Positions 10,111 through 40,240 of a DNA stretch of 64,000 nt are shown here, piece by piece. The position numbers and the translations under genes were made by a program. Position 1 is the first letter of the stretch. The number at the start of each line of letters is the position of its first letter. Below the pieces are notes generated by a model. The model searched no databases and was not told where the DNA came from. It saw only the letters and a program-made list of their open reading frames with translations. This stretch comes from Thermococcus henrietii (GTDB lineage Archaea; Methanobacteriota_B; Thermococci; Thermococcales; Thermococcaceae). Location of the stretch: contig NZ_LT900021.1 of NCBI RefSeq assembly GCF_900198835.1, forward strand, positions 558,001-622,000. Reading direction: 5' to 3'.

Positions 10111-10204
10111 GATTCAGTGGTAAGCTCCCGAAAATTCCGGGCGAAAAAAATATATTTGTGTTCACATCAGAATCTAAATGATATAATCAAGGTCGGTGAC
10201 GTGG

Positions 10205-28118: not shown

Positions 28119-28952
28119 TTGGAGGCGAGGGCTTTCATCGAAATAACGAGGCCGCACAACTGCGTCCTGGCTGGGGTAGTCGGCCTGCTCGGTTCGATAG
28201 TGGCGGTAGGCCACTTCCCGGAGCCGGTAAAGGCGTTGCTCGTCTTCTTAGTGGTCACTCTCGGTTGCTCCGCCGGCAACACGATAAACGACTACTTCGA
28301 TTACGAGATAGACAGGATAAACCGTCCCGAGAGACCCCTGCCGAGGGGCGCGATGAGCCGGAGGGTTGCTTTCTGGTACGCGATGGTTCTCTTCGCCATT
28401 GGCCTAATCCTTGCCTCCCTGATAAACGTCTACGCCTTCCTGCTGGCGGTCCTGGCTTACACCGCGATGTTCCTCTACGCTTGGAAGCTAAAGCCACTCC
28501 CCTTCGTCGGCAACCTCGTCGTCGCCGGCCTTACCGGCGCCACACCGCTCTACGGCGCGATAGCTGTCGGGAAGATAGGCCTCGCCGGTTATCTGGCCCT
28601 GTGTGCGTTCCTCGTTAACGTCGCGAGGGAGGTAATAAAGGACATAGAGGATGTGGAAGGCGACCTCGCCAAGGGCGCGAGGACCCTTCCGATAGTCATC
28701 GGGAAGAAGAAATCCGCCTACGTGGGGGCGTTCTTCGCTGTCCTGACGGTTATCGCGTCATTCCTGCCGATTAAGGCCGGCGTCGGTCTCAGCTACCTTG
28801 CAATGGTTCCTGTCGATGCCATAATCCTATACTCGGCATTCCTAATCCTCCGCTCGCAGGACAGGGAAACCGCCCACCGCTCGCAAAAACTGCTCAAAAT
28901 AAGCATATTCCTTGCCGTTATGGCCTTCATGATAGCTTCGCTCGTGAGGTGA
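28119..28952 (+). CDS. UbiA-type prenyltransferase, digeranylgeranylglyceryl phosphate synthase
   Basis: 277 residues, about eight membrane helices. ITRPHNCVLAGVVGLLGS opens the protein. The first Asp-rich motif NTINDYFDYEIDRINRPERPLPRG and the second DIEDVEGDLAKGARTLPI are those of the archaeal enzyme adding the second geranylgeranyl chain to glycerol phosphate, a step in ether lipid synthesis. The start is taken as TTG 28119 behind GGTGGTAGT, because no ATG or GTG in frame lies nearby; TTG 28104 is the alternative. A TTTTAAA box lies at 28082-28088. Confidence 0.88.
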   Translation: MEARAFIEITRPHNCVLAGVVGLLGSIVAVGHFPEPVKALLVFLVVTLGCSAGNTINDYFDYEIDRINRPERPLPRGAMSRRVAFWYAMVLFAIGLILASLINVYAFLLAVLAYTAMFLYAWKLKPLPFVGNLVVAGLTGATPLYGAIAVGKIGLAGYLALCAFLVNVAREVIKDIEDVEGDLAKGARTLPIVIGKKKSAYVGAFFAVLTVIASFLPIKAGVGLSYLAMVPVDAIILYSAFLILRSQDRETAHRSQKLLKISIFLAVMAFMIASLVR

Positions 28953-28957
28953 TGGAT

Positions 28958-29338
28958 ATGGAGTTTAAGGACGAGATAATTAAAGAGCTTGAAAACGATG
29001 AGCTCTGGACCGTTTTGACGTTCAAGACCCCGCACGGCCCGTCTAAAACGTTAAACGAACTCGCCAGGGTCGTTGAGGAGGCCGGCTGGAAGGTGACATT
29101 CAAGGCCAACTGGTGGACCGCCGACATACCCTACGGCCTCATAAGGCTCGACCTCCAGAAGGACGGGAGGGAGAAGATTCTCCTGGGCAGGTGGATACTC
29201 GGGAAGGACTGCGAGCTGATTAGGGTTGAGAGCCTTGACCTCGAGCGCGGAAAGGACGAGTTCTTCCGCATGGTGGACAGCATAACGTCGACGCTGATAC
29301 ACGACCCCGTGATAAGGACGATGCGCGAGCAGTACTGA
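28958..29338 (+). CDS. Orphan family protein, paralogue of the ilv-operon ORF at 33761
   Basis: 126 residues, soluble, mixed alpha/beta. I know no function. Compared with the protein at 33761 it shares W(T/L)V(L/V)(T/L)F/R(K/T)(T)P, (A)GWKVTFKANWW, RVESLDLE and a C-terminal S.T(L)..DPV.R.M..(Y) pattern, so the two are clear paralogues. ATG 28958 follows GAGGTGATGGAT at the end of the prenyltransferase gene and is co-transcribed with it. The family may be restricted to Thermococcales. Confidence 0.75.
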   Translation: MEFKDEIIKELENDELWTVLTFKTPHGPSKTLNELARVVEEAGWKVTFKANWWTADIPYGLIRLDLQKDGREKILLGRWILGKDCELIRVESLDLERGKDEFFRMVDSITSTLIHDPVIRTMREQY

Positions 29339-33576: not shown

Positions 33577-33592
33577 GCGAAAAGTTTTTATA
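33577..33592 (+). promoter_or_regulatory. BRE/TATA promoter of the ilv-leu leader
   Basis: GCGAAAAG followed by TTTTTATA. The expected transcription start, about 25 bases from the TATA centre, is near 33615, only a few bases before the leader ORF at 33622. The mRNA would be nearly leaderless, so the first leader peptide is the first thing a ribosome meets. Confidence 0.65.
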
Positions 33593-33621
33593 GTTAATAG
33601 TACGAAGGGATTCCGATAACA

Positions 33622-33711
33622 ATGAGCGGCACCACCACCCGCCTCGGTCTCAATGGTGCCCTTCCCCTTCTTCTCATTGCCATAGACATTATTCTCATCA
33701 TTATTCTCTGA
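33622..33711 (+). CDS. Candidate ilv leader peptide 1 (29 codons, Leu/Ile-rich)
   Basis: A 29-residue frame, ATG to TGA. It starts MSGTTTRLGLNGALPLLL and ends AIDIILIIIL. It has 8 Leu and 7 Ile codons, 15 of 29, with the last seven residues all Ile or Leu. No other gene overlaps it. It follows the promoter at 33577 directly and is followed by a T7 tract with a weak hairpin and then a strong ribosome binding site. Composition and position match bacterial ilv leader peptides that sense charged branched-chain tRNA. A second peptide of the same length and ending lies at 34158. Alternatively it is a one-helix membrane peptide. Translation is not proven. Confidence 0.6.
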   Translation: MSGTTTRLGLNGALPLLLIAIDIILIIIL

Positions 33712-33714
33712 AGT

Positions 33715-33735
33715 GGCGGCTCTTTTTTTGTCGCC
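33715..33735 (+). terminator. Potential attenuator: weak hairpin holding a T7 tract
   Basis: GGCG (33715-33718) can pair with CGCC (33732-33735), enclosing a loop with seven T (33723-33729). It begins four bases after the stop codon of leader peptide 1. In archaea a run of T alone can cause transcription to end, so this is a candidate conditional terminator whose use would depend on ribosome position. An alternative pairing GCGG/CCGC exists one base over. Confidence 0.45.
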
Positions 33736-33760
33736 CGCAAAAGTCCTGGAGGTGTTCTCC

Positions 33761-34153
33761 ATGAAGCCCTTTGGTGGTTTCGGTTGGGATGGGTCCGTCT
33801 GGAACGCCCTTGAAAACTCCCCCGGCTGGCTGACCGTTGTTCTCAGAACGCCAGTTGGGCCAAGAGAAGTTGAGAGTTTCGTGGAGGAAGAGCTCAGGAG
33901 GCACGGCTGGAGCGTGGACTTCAAGGCCAACTGGTGGGCGTTTGGCTACGGCGTCGCCCTGTTCGAGACCTTCAGGCACGGCAAGAGGAGGAGTGTCGTC
34001 GTCAAGTGGGTCTCCGGTGGAAGGGACGAGGTGCTGAAGGTCGAGCCCCTCGACGAGGAAACTGGCCGGTGCGAGCTCTTCTCGATGGTCGAGATGGTGA
34101 GCGACGGCCTGATGAACGACCCAGTGCTTAGGAACATGATGGGGAGGTACTGA
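33761..34153 (+). CDS. Orphan family protein in the ilv leader region
   Basis: 130 residues, soluble. Paralogue of the protein at 28958: GWLTVVLRTPVGP, HGWSVDFKANWWAFGYG, VLKVEPLDEETGRCELFSMVEMVSDGLMNDPV and a final YXY-like GRY. No catalytic motif seen, but conserved Trp pairs and charged positions suggest a ligand- or protein-binding fold. ATG 33761 is set by GGAGGTGTTCTCC. It sits between the two leader peptides and 140 bases before ilvB, so it is a candidate regulator of the operon (inference); the paralogue sits behind a lipid gene. Confidence 0.75.
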   Translation: MKPFGGFGWDGSVWNALENSPGWLTVVLRTPVGPREVESFVEEELRRHGWSVDFKANWWAFGYGVALFETFRHGKRRSVVVKWVSGGRDEVLKVEPLDEETGRCELFSMVEMVSDGLMNDPVLRNMMGRY

Positions 34154-34157
34154 CTCA

Positions 34158-34247
34158 ATGACGCCCCGCCGTACCAACCTTTCGATTTCCTGCCTTCTTC
34201 TCGGGGTCTCTGCTATAGCCGTCATTATTGGGATTATTATTCTCTGA
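34158..34247 (+). CDS. Candidate ilv leader peptide 2 (29 codons, Ile/Leu/Val-rich)
   Basis: 29 residues from ATG to TGA. It starts MTPRRTNLSISCLLLGVS and ends AIAVIIGIIIL. It has 7 Ile, 5 Leu and 2 Val codons. GGGGAGGT lies nine bases before the ATG, at the end of the 130-residue gene, so translation is plausible and coupled. It aligns with leader 1 from the AI near residue 20 to the shared IIIL-stop, and the nucleotide ends are also alike (ATTATTCTCTGAA in both). A GC hairpin follows three bases after its stop, then the ilvB ribosome binding site. Confidence 0.6.
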   Translation: MTPRRTNLSISCLLLGVSAIAVIIGIIIL

Positions 34248-34250
34248 AAA

Positions 34251-34265
34251 CCCGGCCAAGCCGGG
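34251..34265 (+). promoter_or_regulatory. GC hairpin between leader 2 and ilvB
   Basis: CCCGGC-CAA-GCCGGG, a perfect six-base stem with a three-base loop, three bases after the leader 2 stop and five bases before GGAGGTG. A ribosome stopping at the end of leader 2 would cover it, and a stalled one further upstream would not. It could gate translation or transcription into ilvB. Confidence 0.55.
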
Positions 34266-34293
34266 AAACGGAGGTGTTTCTGCGGTGGTCTCT

Positions 34294-35979
34294 ATGCGCG
34301 GTGCAAAGGCCCTCGTGAGGGCTCTGGAAAGGGAGGGTGTGAGGAACACCTTCGGCATAATCGGGGGAAGCATAATGCCAGTCTTCGACGAGTTCCTTGA
34401 CAGCGGACTAAGGCACATAACGATGCGCCACGAGCAGGGGGCGGCGCACGCGGCGGACGGCTACGCGAGGGTTTCCGGCAGGCCCGGTGTCGCCATAACG
34501 ACTTCCGGGCCCGGCGCGACCAACCTCGTGACCGGAATAGCGACGGCCTACATGGACTCCTCCCCGATAGTTGCCATAACCGGGCAGGTGCCGACGTACA
34601 TGGTGGGCAAGATGGCCTTCCAGGAGACCGACATCATAGGCGTCACGAAGTCGATAACCAAGTGGAACTACCAGATACGGAAGCCGGATGAGGTTCCCAG
34701 GGCCGTTAAGATGGCCTTCAGGATAGCGACTCTGCCGAGGACGGGGCCGGTTCTGCTGGACTTCCCCAAGGACGCCCAGACCGGTGAGGCGGAGATGGAC
34801 TTTGACGTTGACGTTGAGCAGCTCATCACTCCCTTCCGCCCACCGAAGCTCGATGCCTGTCCTGAGGAGGTTAAGAAGGCCGTCGACATGATCCTCTCCG
34901 CTGAGAGACCGGTCTTCATAGTCGGCGGAGGTGTCGTTGCCAGCGGTGCCGGCGATGAGGTTCTCGCGATAGCGGAGTACCTGCTTATTCCAATAATGGC
35001 GACGTTCATGGGCAAGGGTGCTGTTCCGGAGAACCACCCGCTCTACGTCGGCAACCTGGGGATGCACGGTAAGGTTGCCGCCAACAAGCTTCTGCCCGAG
35101 ACGGATCTCATAATAGCGGTTGGAATGCGCTGGAGCGACAGGACGGTGAGCGAGTTCGAGAACTTTGCGCCCGAGGCCAAGATAATCCACATCGACATAG
35201 ACCCGAAGGAGGTTGGAAAGAACGTCAAGGTTGACCTCGGGATAATCGGTGATGCGAAGCGGGTTCTGGCTTCAATAAGGCGTGAGATAATGAGACGCGT
35301 TCAGAAAAGAGAGGACTGGCCGTGGCTTAGGAAGGTCAGGGAGTTCAAGGAGCGCTACCGGGAGGAGATCCCGGAGATCGATGGAAACTACCTCAGGCCC
35401 CCGGAGATACTGAGGGAGCTCAGGAAGCTCCTGCCAGCTGATGCGATAGTTGCAACCGAGGTCGGCCAGAACCAGATGTGGGTTGCCCTCTACTTCCCGA
35501 TACTGAAGCCCCGGACGTTCGTTACGTCGGGCGGGCTGGGAACGATGGGCTTCGGCTTCCCGGCGGCTATAGGGGCCAAGGTCGCGAAGCCCGACAGGGT
35601 GGTCATCGACATAGCCGGCGACGGGAGCTTCATGATGTCCGAGAGGGAACTGGCCACGGCCGTGAGCGAGAAGATACCCGTGATAGTTCTCATCCTCAAC
35701 AACTCCTCCCTCGGCATGGTGGCCCAGTGGCAGAGGATGTTCTTCAGGAGGCGCTACGTCGGGACGTACATACGGAACCCTGACTTCGACAAACTGGCAA
35801 GGGTCTACGGGGCCAACGGCTTCCGCGCCGAGACGATGGACGAGCTGATCAAAGCCGTGAGGGAGGGCATGAGCTCGGACGTCCCGACTGTGATCGACGT
35901 TCCTATCCACCCGGAGGACGACGTTCTGCCGATGGTTCCGCCGGGGGAGCACATAACGAAGGTCGTAACGAGGTATTGA
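34294..35979 (+). CDS. ilvB: Acetolactate/acetohydroxyacid synthase catalytic subunit
   Basis: 561 residues. Thiamine-diphosphate enzyme that condenses pyruvate with pyruvate or 2-oxobutyrate, the first common step to Val, Leu and Ile. [23 protein letters not shown] holds the catalytic Glu; [14 protein letters not shown] follows. The ThDP/Mg motif is [18 protein letters not shown] and LNNSSLGMV. Start is uncertain: ATG 34294 behind GGTGGTCTCT, or GTG 34285 with GGAGGTG at ideal distance. No regulatory small subunit (ilvN/ilvH) is found in the operon. First enzyme gene behind the leader region. Confidence 0.93.
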
Positions 35980-35989
35980 GGTGGTGAAA

Positions 35990-36979
35990 ATGGTGAAGGT
36001 GTACTACGACGATGAGGTAAGCATGGACGTTTTGAAGGACAAGACGGTTGCCGTCATAGGCTACGGCAACCAGGGAGAGGCGCAGGCGAAGAACATGAGG
36101 GATTCGGGGGTGCACGTGATCCTCGGCCTCAGGCCGAACGGGAGCTCGTGGAAGAGGGCCGAAAAGGACGGCTTCGAGGTCTATCCCATAGAGGAGGCCG
36201 TCAAGAAGGCCGACGTCGTGCACATTCTCATCCCGGATCTGGTTCAGCCCGAAGTTTACAGAAAGCAGATAGAGCCGTACCTCAGGGAGGGACAGGCCCT
36301 CGGGTTCTCACACGGCTTCAACATCCACTTCAAGCAGATAGTCCCGCCCGAGTACGTTGACGTCGTGATGGTGGCTCCCAAGAGCCCCGGGAGGCGCGTC
36401 AGAGAGGTCTACCTGGAGGGCTTCGGCGTTCCGTCCCTCATAGCGGTCTACCAGGACTACACGGGAAAGGCCAAAGAGCTGGCCCTCGCGATGGCCAAGG
36501 CCATAGGCTCGACTAGGGCGGGCGTCATAGAGACGACCTTCAAGGACGAGACCGAGAGCGACCTCATCGGGGAGCAGCTCGTCCTCGTCGGCGGCCTAAT
36601 CGAGCTCATCAAGAAGGGCTTTGAGGTCCTTGTGGAGCTCGGCTACCCGCCGGAGCTGGCCTACTTCGAGGCCTGCAACGAGGCGAAGCTCATAATGGAT
36701 CTCATCTACGAGAAGGGCTTCACGGGAATGCTGAGGGCCGTCTCCGACACGGCGAAGTACGGCGGGCTGACGGTCGGCCCGAAGGTGATAGACGAGCACG
36801 TCAAGGAGAACATGAGGCGCTACGCCGAGAGGGTCAGGAGCGGCGAATTCGCAAGGGAGTGGATAGCCAAGGCGGACAACGCCCGGGAGGTCCTTGCGGA
36901 GCTGATGAAGCCGATTGAGGAGCACGAGATTGAGAGGGTCGGACGGTTCATAAGGAAGATGTCGGGCCTCGAGCCCTGA
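35990..36979 (+). CDS. ilvC: Ketol-acid reductoisomerase
   Basis: 329 residues. NAD(P)H site [21 protein letters not shown] near residue 17 and [18 protein letters not shown] (cofactor-specificity loop). The metal-binding knotted domain has [17 protein letters not shown] and [14 protein letters not shown]. Converts acetolactate or acetohydroxybutyrate to the dihydroxy acid. Short class I form. ATG 35990 follows GAGGTGGTGAAA, ten bases after ilvB. Confidence 0.95.
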
Positions 36980-37002
36980 CTTCCTTTTTTGGAGGTGGGG
37001 CA

Positions 37003-38475
37003 ATGAAGGTGGACGTTTTCGACACGACGCTCAGGGACGGCGAGCAGACGCCGGGCGTGAGTTTGACCGTTGAGGAGAAGGTGGAGATAGCGAAGCAGCT
37101 CGCGAGGCTCAACGTCGATGTAATCGAGGCCGGCTTTCCGGTCGCGTCGCCGGGAGAGTTCGAGGCCGTCAGGAGGATAGCGGAGACCGTCACAGGCCCC
37201 GTCATAGCGGCCCTCGCGCGGGCCGTTGAGGGCGACATACGGAAGGCCGGCGAGGCACTCTCAAACGCGGAGCGCTCGAGGATTCACACCTTCATAGCGA
37301 CCTCCCCGGTTCACATGAAGTACAAGCTCCGCAAGAGCCCGGAGGAGGTTAAGAAACTGGCCGTTAAAGCCGTGGAGCTGGCCTCCCAGCTCGCCGACGA
37401 GGTGGAGTTCTCGGCCGAAGACGCGACGAGGAGCGACCCGGACTTCCTCGTGGAGGTTTACGAGGCCGTCATAGATGCCGGTGCGACGGTGATAAACGTC
37501 CCCGACACGGTCGGCTACACCACCCCCGAGGAGTTCTACGGGCTGATAAAGCACCTCAAGAAGAACCTGAGCCTGAGGGGCGTCAAGATAAGCGTCCACT
37601 GCCACGACGACCTCGGTTTAGCGGTTGCAAACTCGCTCTCAGCGGTAAGGGCCGGGGCCGAGCAGGTGGAGGTGACCGTAAACGGGATAGGTGAGAGGGC
37701 CGGGAACGCCGCTCTGGAGGAGGTCGTGGTTGCCCTCGACACGAGGAGGGACTTTTACAAAGCGGAGACCGGGATAAACCTCTCCGAGATAGCGAGGACG
37801 AGCCGGCTCGTCGCCCACCTGACCGGGATAGAGGTGCCTCCGAACAAGGCGGTCGTCGGGGCCAACGCGTTCGCCCACGAGTCGGGAATCCATCAGGATG
37901 GCGTCCTCAAGGAGAGGACGACCTACGAGATAATAGACCCGAAGAGGCTCGGCTTCTCCGGCAGCAGGATAGTTTTGGGCAAGCACTCCGGCAGACACGC
38001 CTTCAGGGAGAAGCTGAGGGAGCTCGGCTACGAGCTGAGCGAGGAGGAGCTTGATCGGGCCTTCGCGAGGTTCAAGGAGATAGCCGACAGGAAGAAGAGC
38101 CTAACCGAGCTCGACATTGAGGCGCTGCTGTACGAGCTCGAGGAGCCAACGTACCGCGTCGAGATGGTGCACGTGACGGCCACCAAGGGCCTCTCAACGG
38201 CCGCTGTGAAGGTTCTCGACGGCGGGGAGCGGGTCGAGGTGTCACACTCCTTCAACGGGCCTGTCGATGCCCTCTTCTCGGCCATAAACCGCGTCCTTGG
38301 AATAGATGCCAGGCTCGTGGAGTACCGCGTTAGTTCGGTCGGCTCGGGGAGGGATGCGCTCGGGGAGGTCCTCGTCAGGGTCGAGAAGGACGGAAAGGTG
38401 CTCGTCGGGCGCGGCCTCAGCACGGACATCCTCGAGGCGAGCGCTCAGGCTTACCTCAACGCCGTAACGAGGTGA
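37003..38475 (+). CDS. leuA: 2-isopropylmalate synthase
   Basis: 490 residues. [16 protein letters not shown] near residue 6 and the metal-binding [15 protein letters not shown] near 200 define the aldolase-type barrel. The [18 protein letters not shown] motif and the C-terminal LeuA dimer domain with [20 protein letters not shown], which in the family binds leucine for feedback inhibition, are present. Condenses acetyl-CoA with 2-oxoisovalerate, the committed step to leucine. GGAGGTGGGGCA precedes the ATG. A T6 run lies in the 23-base gap after ilvC. Confidence 0.93.
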
Positions 38476-38480
38476 TGCGA

Positions 38481-39749
38481 ATGGGAATGACTATGGCTGA
38501 AAAGATACTCGCCAAGCACGCCGGAAGGGAGGAGGTAAAGCCCGGGGAAATTGTCATGGCGAAGCTCGACTTCATGCTCGGGAACGACGTGACGGCGCCG
38601 CTCGCCATAAAGAAGTTCAGGGAGCTCTCCGACAGGGTCTTCGACCCGGAGAGGATAGCGATAGTGCTCGACCACTTCACCCCGAACAAGGACATAAAGG
38701 CCGCGGAGCAGTGCAAGTTCTCCCGTGAGTTCGCCAGGGAGCAGGGGATAAAGTGGTTCTTCGAGGGGGGAAACGTCGGCGTCGAGCACTGCCTCCTGCC
38801 GGAGCTCGGCCTCGTCCTCCCAGGGGAGCTGATAATCGGCGCCGATTCTCACACCTGCACCTACGGGGCGCTGGGCGCCTTCGCCACGGGAGTGGGGAGC
38901 ACGGATCTGGCGGTTGCGATGGCCACCGGCGAGGCGTGGTTCCGCGTACCGGAGACGGTTAAGTTCGTCTACACGGGCGAGCCCGGCCGGTGGATCACGG
39001 GGAAGGACCTGATCCTCCACACGATAGGAGACATAGGTGTGAACGGGGCGCTCTACAAGGCCATGGAGTTCAGCGGAGAGGTCATCGAGGGGCTCTCCGT
39101 GGAGGGGAGGATGACGATGGCAAACATGGCGATTGAGGCCGGGGCGAAGACCGGCCTGATAGAGCCCGACAAAAAGACGCTCGACTACGTGAAGGAGCGC
39201 GCCCAGAGGGACTTCGAGCCGGTGAAGGGCGACGAGGACGCGAAGTACGCGAAGGTCATAGAGTACGACGTCACGGAGCTTGAGCCGCTGGCGGCATTTC
39301 CCCACCTGCCCGAGAACACCGTGCCGGTCAGCAGGGCCTCAAAGATGAACATCAAAATCGACCAGGTCTTCATAGGCTCGTGCACGAACGGCCGCTACGA
39401 GGATTTGAAGATGGCGGCTGAGGTCCTCGAGGGGCAGAGGGTGGCCGAGTGGGTCAGGCTCATCGTGATTCCGTGCTCGAGGAGCGTCTACCTCAGAGCG
39501 ATGAAGGAGGGCCTCCTCGAGGTCTTCCACGAGGCCGGGGCTGTAATAGGGCCGCCGACCTGCGGGCCGTGCCTCGGCGGCCACATGGGGATCCTTGCGA
39601 GCGGGGAGAGGGCAGTCTCGACCTCCAACAGGAACTTCGTCGGCAGGATGGGGCACCCGGAGAGCGAGGTTTACCTGGCCAACCCCTACGTTGCCGCTGC
39701 CTCTGCCGTTCTCGGAAGGATAGCCTCTCCCGAGGAGGTGGTAAAATGA
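38481..39749 (+). CDS. leuC: Isopropylmalate/citramalate isomerase large subunit
   Basis: 422 residues of the aconitase family. 4Fe-4S ligands in [12 protein letters not shown] near residue 298 and [13 protein letters not shown] near 358. The barrel end [12 protein letters not shown] is also conserved. Works with LeuD to isomerise isopropylmalate, and citramalate in the CimA branch. ATG 38481 has GAGGTGATGCGA before it and overlaps nothing but the leader bases after leuA; earlier ATG 38475 is possible. Confidence 0.94.
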
Positions 39750-40240
39750 AGGTTCGCGGGAGGGCGTGGAAGTACGGCGACCACGTCGACACGGACGTCA
39801 TAATCCCTGCGCGCTACCTCAACACGTCCGAGCCGGCCGAGCTGGCGAAGCACGTTCTCGAGGACCTCGACCCCGAGTTCAGGTTCAGGATGAAGCCGGG
39901 GGACATGATAGTTGCCGGGGAGAACTTCGGCTCCGGGAGCTCGAGGGAGCACGCCCCGCTCGCCATAAAGGCGGCTGGTGTTTCCTGCGTGATAGCGAAG
40001 AGCTTCGCGCGCATCTTCTACCGCAACGCCATCAACATCGGCCTGCCGATACTCGAGGCGCCCGAGGCAGTTGATGCGATAGAGACCGGCGACGAGCTCG
40101 AGGTGGACTTCTCGACCGGCGAGATAAGGAACCTGACGAAGAACGAGGTCTACCGCGCGAACCCGTTCCCGGACTTCGTGATGGAGATAATAAGCGCGGG
40201 CGGCCTCGTGGAGTACACGAAGAGGAGGCTTGCGAAATGA
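39746..40240 (+). CDS. leuD: Isopropylmalate/citramalate isomerase small subunit
   Basis: 164 residues. [17 protein letters not shown] near residue 15 and [28 protein letters not shown] near 52 are the substrate-binding swivelling-domain motifs. ATG 39746 overlaps the leuC stop (ATGA) with GAGGAGGTGGTAAA upstream. An open frame continues further upstream inside leuC but is not used. Confidence 0.95.

Follow-up and report, generated by a model that had tools for sequence, protein, structure and literature searches.

Two leaders in a Thermococcus BCAA operon

The window (the whole 64 kb stretch of DNA analysed) lies in a Thermococcus-type chromosome of 2.16 Mb. It contains a branched-chain amino acid (BCAA) biosynthetic operon, in which short open reading frames (ORFs) precede the first structural gene (leader 1) and ilvB (leader 2). 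The features of this region, as read from the sequence, are:

33577–33592, + strand: promoter, with BRE-like GCGAAA (33577–33582) and TATA box TTTTTATA (33585–33592)
33622–33711, + strand: leader 1 ORF, MSGTTTRLGLNGALPLLLIAIDIILIIIL, 29 codons, TGA stop at 33709–33711
33673–33708, + strand: putative BCAA regulatory codon run CTC ATT GCC ATA GAC ATT ATT CTC ATC ATT ATT CTC, abutting the leader 1 stop
33715–33735, + strand: 6-bp hairpin with a U-run in its loop (GGCGGC 33715–33720, loop UCUUUUUUU, GTCGCC 33730–33735)
33723–33729, + strand: T7 tract, candidate conditional termination or FttA-binding site
33748–33754, + strand: Shine–Dalgarno (SD) sequence GGAGGTG of the first structural gene
33761–34153, + strand: gene for a 130-aa protein of no Pfam family, the first gene behind leader 1
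34141–34148, + strand: SD sequence GGGGAGGT of leader 2, within the 3' end of the 130-aa gene
34158–34247, + strand: leader 2 ORF, MTPRRTNLSISCLLLGVSAIAVIIGIIIL and stop, upstream of ilvB
34242–34273, + strand: leader 2 hairpin region, with a CCCGGC-CAA-GCCGGG core at 34251–34265
34285–35979, + strand: ilvB, acetolactate synthase large subunit (start GTG 34285 or ATG 34294)
35981–40240, + strand: remainder of the BCAA operon as examined, with ilvC, leuA-like, aconitase-type leuC and leuD-like small subunit genes (leuD labelled on sequence alone)

Transcription is expected to start at approximately 33613–33618, so that the leader 1 mRNA would be nearly leaderless; most related leaders have a TATA box at a similar distance. 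Ten of the final 12 codons of leader 1 encode Ile or Leu, and eight of the final 12 codons of leader 2 encode Ile, Val or Leu. These are the only short ORFs on either strand of the 64 kb with at least eight I/L/V among the last 12 codons; under a Markov model of the intergenic stretch, such ILV-rich-tail ORFs have a 0.8% chance of arising. Behind the leader 1 stop come AGUGGCGGCUCUUUUUUUGUCGCCC, the SD sequence and the 130-aa gene, with 49 nt from stop to start. A longer version of the 130-aa protein, beginning at GTG 33713 and rendering the T7 tract coding, is unlikely, since alignments with relatives begin at ATG 33761, a start codon preceded by a good SD sequence.

The AlphaFold model of the 130-aa protein is confident (pLDDT 85) but has no fold match in the PDB at E ≤ 0.001. 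Two paralogues of this ~130-aa family are present in the window (28949–29338 and 33761–34153), with an FKANWW motif and no Pfam match. The family occurs in 90 of 94 Thermococcaceae genomes, ilvC-less ones included, and no leader was found ahead of paralogues of the 130-aa gene among the loci examined. Further along the same operon, a T6 run on the sense strand between ilvC and leuA (36985–36990) is a possible internal terminator.

No U-tract follows the leader 2 stop. Here, CUCUG at 34242–34246 (the last codon of leader 2 plus its stop) can pair with CGGAG at 34269–34273 of the ilvB SD sequence, extending the hairpin. With a ribosome over the end of leader 2, the predicted pairing of the ilvB SD sequence falls from 0.86 to 0.37–0.39 at 37 °C, and from 0.59 to 0.38 at 80 °C. 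These folds suggest that the output of leader 2 differs from that of leader 1, in that a ribosome at its end would free the ilvB SD sequence. The pairing of the leader 2 end with the SD sequence around the strong CCCGGC/GCCGGG hairpin is a separate candidate for translational control.

The T7 tract and its hairpin

A sequence-only reading of this DNA had placed seven T residues 12–18 nt past the stop of leader 1, enclosed by a short GGCG/CGCC stem, and proposed that they act as a conditional terminator. The position agrees with the coordinates (33723–33729, against a TGA at 33709–33711) and the tract does lie in a stem loop; the stem itself is actually 6 bp long, with one G–U pair.

T7 runs are avoided in the window: two are found on the two strands together, whereas dinucleotide-shuffled versions give 8.1 ± 3.8, and 99 of 100 of these contain at least two. 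The tract behind leader 1 is the only + strand copy, and the other (at 10144) is on the − strand between two + strand genes. When the 50-nt spacer is subjected to mononucleotide shuffling, T7 arises in 0.3% of shuffles and a U-loop hairpin in 0.4%. Three U-loop/GC-stem sites exist on the two strands of the window, with the longest U-run at leader 1.

The predicted stability of the leader 1 stem is −8.8 kcal/mol at 37 °C and close to zero at 80–85 °C (folding temperatures are extrapolated), and so the stem is likely to be marginal at the growth temperature of Thermococcus. In the predicted folds of leader 1, this marginal hairpin is the only one after the stop, with no alternative pairing. No Rfam leader or riboswitch family (T-box, ilv leaders) scored above its gathering threshold.

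Leaders in other Thermococcaceae

Only seven of 94 Thermococcaceae genomes carry ilvC, and those with readable upstream DNA have a leader ORF ahead of the 130-aa gene. The Thermococcaceae set comprises 12 leader ORFs in seven genomes, with counterparts of leader 1 in six genomes besides that of the window. In four genomes of another genus (G004, G005, G008 and G009), ilvB is preceded by a second leader that has a TATA box of its own; leader 2 is absent from G068. One genome without ilvC (G046, locus L005) retains leader 1 and the 130-aa gene, which suggests that the 130-aa gene is itself under BCAA control.

In the 12-codon tails of the 12 leaders, 126 of 144 positions are I/L/V (69 Ile, 44 Leu and 13 Val), while Phe and Met are both absent. 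Given a genic Phe share of 0.126 among F+I+L+V, the probability of observing zero Phe is ~5e-8, which indicates a codon run specific for BCAAs and not one that is hydrophobic or U-rich in general. Ile is encoded by ATT or ATC in 74 of 89 cases, compared with ~50% (p 8e-5 and 1e-7); the commonest Ile codon in both genera is ATA. Beyond the I/L/V tail no residues are conserved among the leader peptides, the remainder of each being unrelated. The tail composition and the choice of Ile codons fit codons that are read as amino acid sensors, and not a membrane peptide or U-richness.

The Thermococcaceae post-leader spacers consist of 39% T and 18% A. Runs of four or more T occur 29 times per kb in these spacers, 13 times per kb in the intra-operon gaps of the window, and 1.6 times per kb in genes. 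Compared with shuffles of the spacers themselves, the count is not significant (21 against 16.8), meaning that it is the composition of the spacers, and not their T4+ runs, that is unusual. The T7 tract is not conserved: the other Thermococcaceae leaders carry U4–U5 tracts 1–47 nt past the stop.

Leaders in other archaeal classes

ORFs with ILV tails were found ahead of ilvB in three further archaeal classes, at 77 of 127 loci in sense orientation versus 1 of 127 in antisense (with at least 7 I/L/V among the 12 tail codons as the threshold, and loci within one class not being independent). By class, the counts are 38/48, 25/49 and 14/30 in sense, and 1/48, 0/49 and 0/30 on the opposite strand. 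Class names were inferred from the seed records (Archaeoglobus, a DHVE2 archaeon and Thaumarchaeota-type archaea), giving groups that are Archaeoglobi-like, Thermoplasmatota-like and Nitrososphaeria-like. An earlier mixed sample gave tails of at least 8/12 I/L/V at only 4 of 42 archaeal loci, with the methanogen-type and most Bathyarchaeota ilvB loci lacking one; the leader element is thus patchy rather than universal.

Tails in these classes can be shorter, for example LVVVH or VVVLF. Among Archaeoglobi-class leaders (e.g., L141, L143 and L145), group-specific endings (LVVVH, LVVVC, LVVVQ, VVVLF) abut the stop, and the members of a subgroup have the same final non-BCAA residue.

Several arrangements are seen behind the stop. 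In seven of 90 leaders, a U-run sits in the loop of a GC stem, the stem starting 1–5 nt past the stop, against ~0.35 per 90 in shuffles. These are the window, L129 (GCCC-U6-GGGC), L146 and L148 (GGGC-U5-GCCC), and L216, L220 and L221 (CCCGC-U6 stem); two additional matches among the 90 lie further from the stop. Taken alone, runs of at least six T in the 90 post-leader spacers show no enrichment over composition (11 versus 10.5), and T-run length by itself was therefore rejected as a signal. A hairpin and then T6 are found in L083/L120, L043/L185 and L040, with the order of hairpin, T6 and SD sequence in L120 and L185 resembling a bacterial terminator. Some leaders have a hairpin without a U-run, while many of the Archaeoglobi class have neither between the stop and the SD sequence and must therefore use a different output step. 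Only ~10–25 nt separate the stop from the SD sequence in Archaeoglobi-class loci. The recurrent features are (i) BCAA codons abutting the stop, and (ii) in a subset, a U-run or hairpin right behind it. T7 is one instance.

In 38 genomes, the surroundings of trpE contained no Trp-rich ORF and those of hisG no convincing His-rich one. The sole His-rich ORF, L294, was rejected because the hisG promoter lies downstream of it.

A proposed mechanism, and its alternatives

The leader peptide with terminal Ile/Leu codons that the sequence-only reading had described is genuine and appears repeatedly in archaeal ilv operons; it very probably senses BCAAs. The premise that archaeal polymerase terminates at T runs is also well founded, U4–U7 tracts being documented signals that are bound by aCPSF1/FttA (PMC8716108, PMC11616081). 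Terminators of T. kodakarensis include U4–U7 tracts, and aCPSF1/FttA binds tracts of at least four U (PMC8716108). The evidence on the T7 tract itself is divided: the U-rich Thermococcaceae spacers and the recurrence of U-run/GC-stem loops in Archaeoglobi-class leaders favor a conditional terminator, while the lack of T7 conservation, the lack of a U-tract at leader 2 and the chance-level frequency of T≥6 runs count against one. Judged on these grounds, T7 is a plausible candidate terminator, with a probability that falls a little short of even.

We propose that the nearly leaderless mRNA opens with a short ORF whose final Ile/Leu codons would set the fate of transcription as follows. (i) With ample Ile, Leu and Val, the ribosome would complete leader 1 and depart, exposing the U-rich spacer and U7. 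Termination would then occur either intrinsically at the U-run, or through binding of FttA/aCPSF1 to the U-tract; on the FttA route, polymerase would be ~30–36 nt past the U-tract, near the start of the 130-aa gene (~33759), as the next SD sequence emerges. (ii) When BCAA-tRNAs are scarce, the ribosome would park on the final Ile/Leu codons with its leading edge at or over the stem and U-tract, hindering termination and allowing the operon to be transcribed. (iii) Leader 2 would re-sense BCAAs ahead of ilvB, probably uncovering the ilvB SD sequence. Assuming a standard footprint, a ribosome with its A site at the stop or the last three codons would reach ~33714–33724, covering the 5' arm of the stem or touching the tract.

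The two routes to termination differ in what they predict. In E. coli, a ribosome close behind polymerase suppresses intrinsic terminators near stop codons (PMC4824070), and hence a T7 switch that worked only intrinsically could have either sign; a trailing ribosome under plentiful amino acids would blunt or reverse it. Occlusion of FttA gives a coherent switch direction. Counted back from the RNA 3' end, FttA requires a U-rich stretch at −30 to −36 as well as a U at −23, and mutual exclusion of ribosome and FttA has been proposed (PMC11616081). U7 matches −30 to −36 when polymerase is at ~33759; the U-rich stretch and the U at −23 are never both exactly placed at one position. Leader 1 is unlikely to work by translational reinitiation, since its 49-nt stop-to-start distance exceeds the limit of 30–40 nt observed in Haloferax (PMC12548453). 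Overall, we place at close to even the chance that this region is the BCAA attenuator leader of an archaeal ilv-leu operon, with completion of the leader exposing a U-tract for termination.

Three other explanations were weighed. The stalled ribosome could act on translation, by altering mRNA folding or clearing the SD sequence of the next gene, with T7 being incidental. Leader 2, where CUCUG pairs with the ilvB SD sequence and the predicted pairing drops under a ribosome, would behave in this manner, and the short distance (~10–25 nt) between stop and SD sequence in the Archaeoglobi class would suit it. At leader 1, however, the predicted pairing of the SD sequence is constant across ribosome positions (0.64/0.63/0.63 at 37 °C), most Thermococcaceae leaders show no consistent SD release, and the U-rich spacers would be left unexplained. 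SD sequestration was rejected as a general rule, a clear ribosome-dependent change being seen only at leader 2 of the window, and we consider translational attenuation unlikely as an account of the locus. BCAA sensing could also operate through general polarity, with ribosomes lost at the leader stop and FttA terminating anywhere on naked RNA, making T7 dispensable. Polarity is documented in Thermococcus and is likely caused by FttA (PMC12548453), and the unconserved T7 and the U4 tracts at a variable 1–47 nt past stops count in its favor. Yet U-runs in GC-stem loops 1–5 nt past the stop recur beyond chance, and a 50-nt spacer with an immediate SD sequence leaves scant naked RNA; this explanation is improbable to a greater degree than the preceding one.

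The least probable is that the short ORFs are functional hydrophobic membrane microproteins and T7 a chance run in an AT-rich leader. Hydrophobic tails would be expected of such proteins, and the frequency of T≥6 runs does not exceed that expected from composition, but sequence is not conserved outside the I/L/V tail, Phe and Met are missing from all 144 tail positions, and Ile codon choice is skewed. Moreover, every leader precedes either BCAA genes or the linked 130-aa gene, and in other classes their tails are shortened to LVVVH, VVVLF and similar.

Significance and comparison with known systems

According to a 2021 study of archaeal transcription, neither attenuation nor antitermination had a known example in archaea (PMC8448881), and we found no later report of archaeal attenuation in the open-licence literature. 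The recurrence of BCAA-codon leaders in four archaeal groups points to attenuation-like control, undescribed in archaea. More tentatively, and with the balance leaning somewhat against it, the position of the ribosome on terminal Ile/Leu/Val codons may gate a U-tract terminator (intrinsic or FttA-dependent) of BCAA synthesis in at least four archaeal classes. If true, this would be a domain-wide counterpart to bacterial attenuation that uses different termination machinery. The leaders in Thermococcaceae, Archaeoglobi-, Thermoplasmatota- and Nitrososphaeria-like genomes would supply many concrete, testable cases, and would directly test translational control of FttA-dependent termination, a question that the paper on the FttA structure poses (PMC11616081).

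Among archaeal systems, the U-tract/aCPSF1 (FttA) terminators likewise use U4–U7 signals and act within operons, but are not described as dependent on translation of a leader peptide (PMC8716108, PMC10450193, PMC10665913). Promoter-proximal, aCPSF1-linked premature termination in Saccharolobus has similarly been proposed as regulatory; unlike leader 1, it shows no U-tract bias and involves no leader peptide (PMC8448881).

The bacterial BCAA attenuators compared were those of the ilvL/leuL type, Corynebacterium ilvBNC, and the ilv leaders of S. aureus and Listeria. As in these, a short ORF with end-product codons precedes the biosynthetic genes, and a candidate termination signal (U7 in the window; hairpin-plus-T6 arrangements are confined to relatives, L120 and L185 among them) lies between the leader and the first gene. 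The locus differs from them in its archaeal host, its near-leaderless mRNA, and the packing of the regulatory codons against the stop. The mutually exclusive antiterminator and terminator hairpins of trpL/ilvL-type leaders were not found in the predicted folds of leader 1; the archaeal U-tract has no stable hairpin before it, or is within a hairpin loop.

In E. coli tnaC, a ribosome stalled near the leader stop blocks Rho, and free tryptophan is sensed via an arrest peptide. Conserved arrest residues of the tnaC type are absent from the archaeal leader peptides beyond their I/L/V content. The proposed logic is nonetheless similar, in that a ribosome halted where the leader ends would hide a termination-factor loading site behind the stop. 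It differs from tnaC in that the archaeal leader would sense amino acid shortage through its codons, with FttA in place of Rho.
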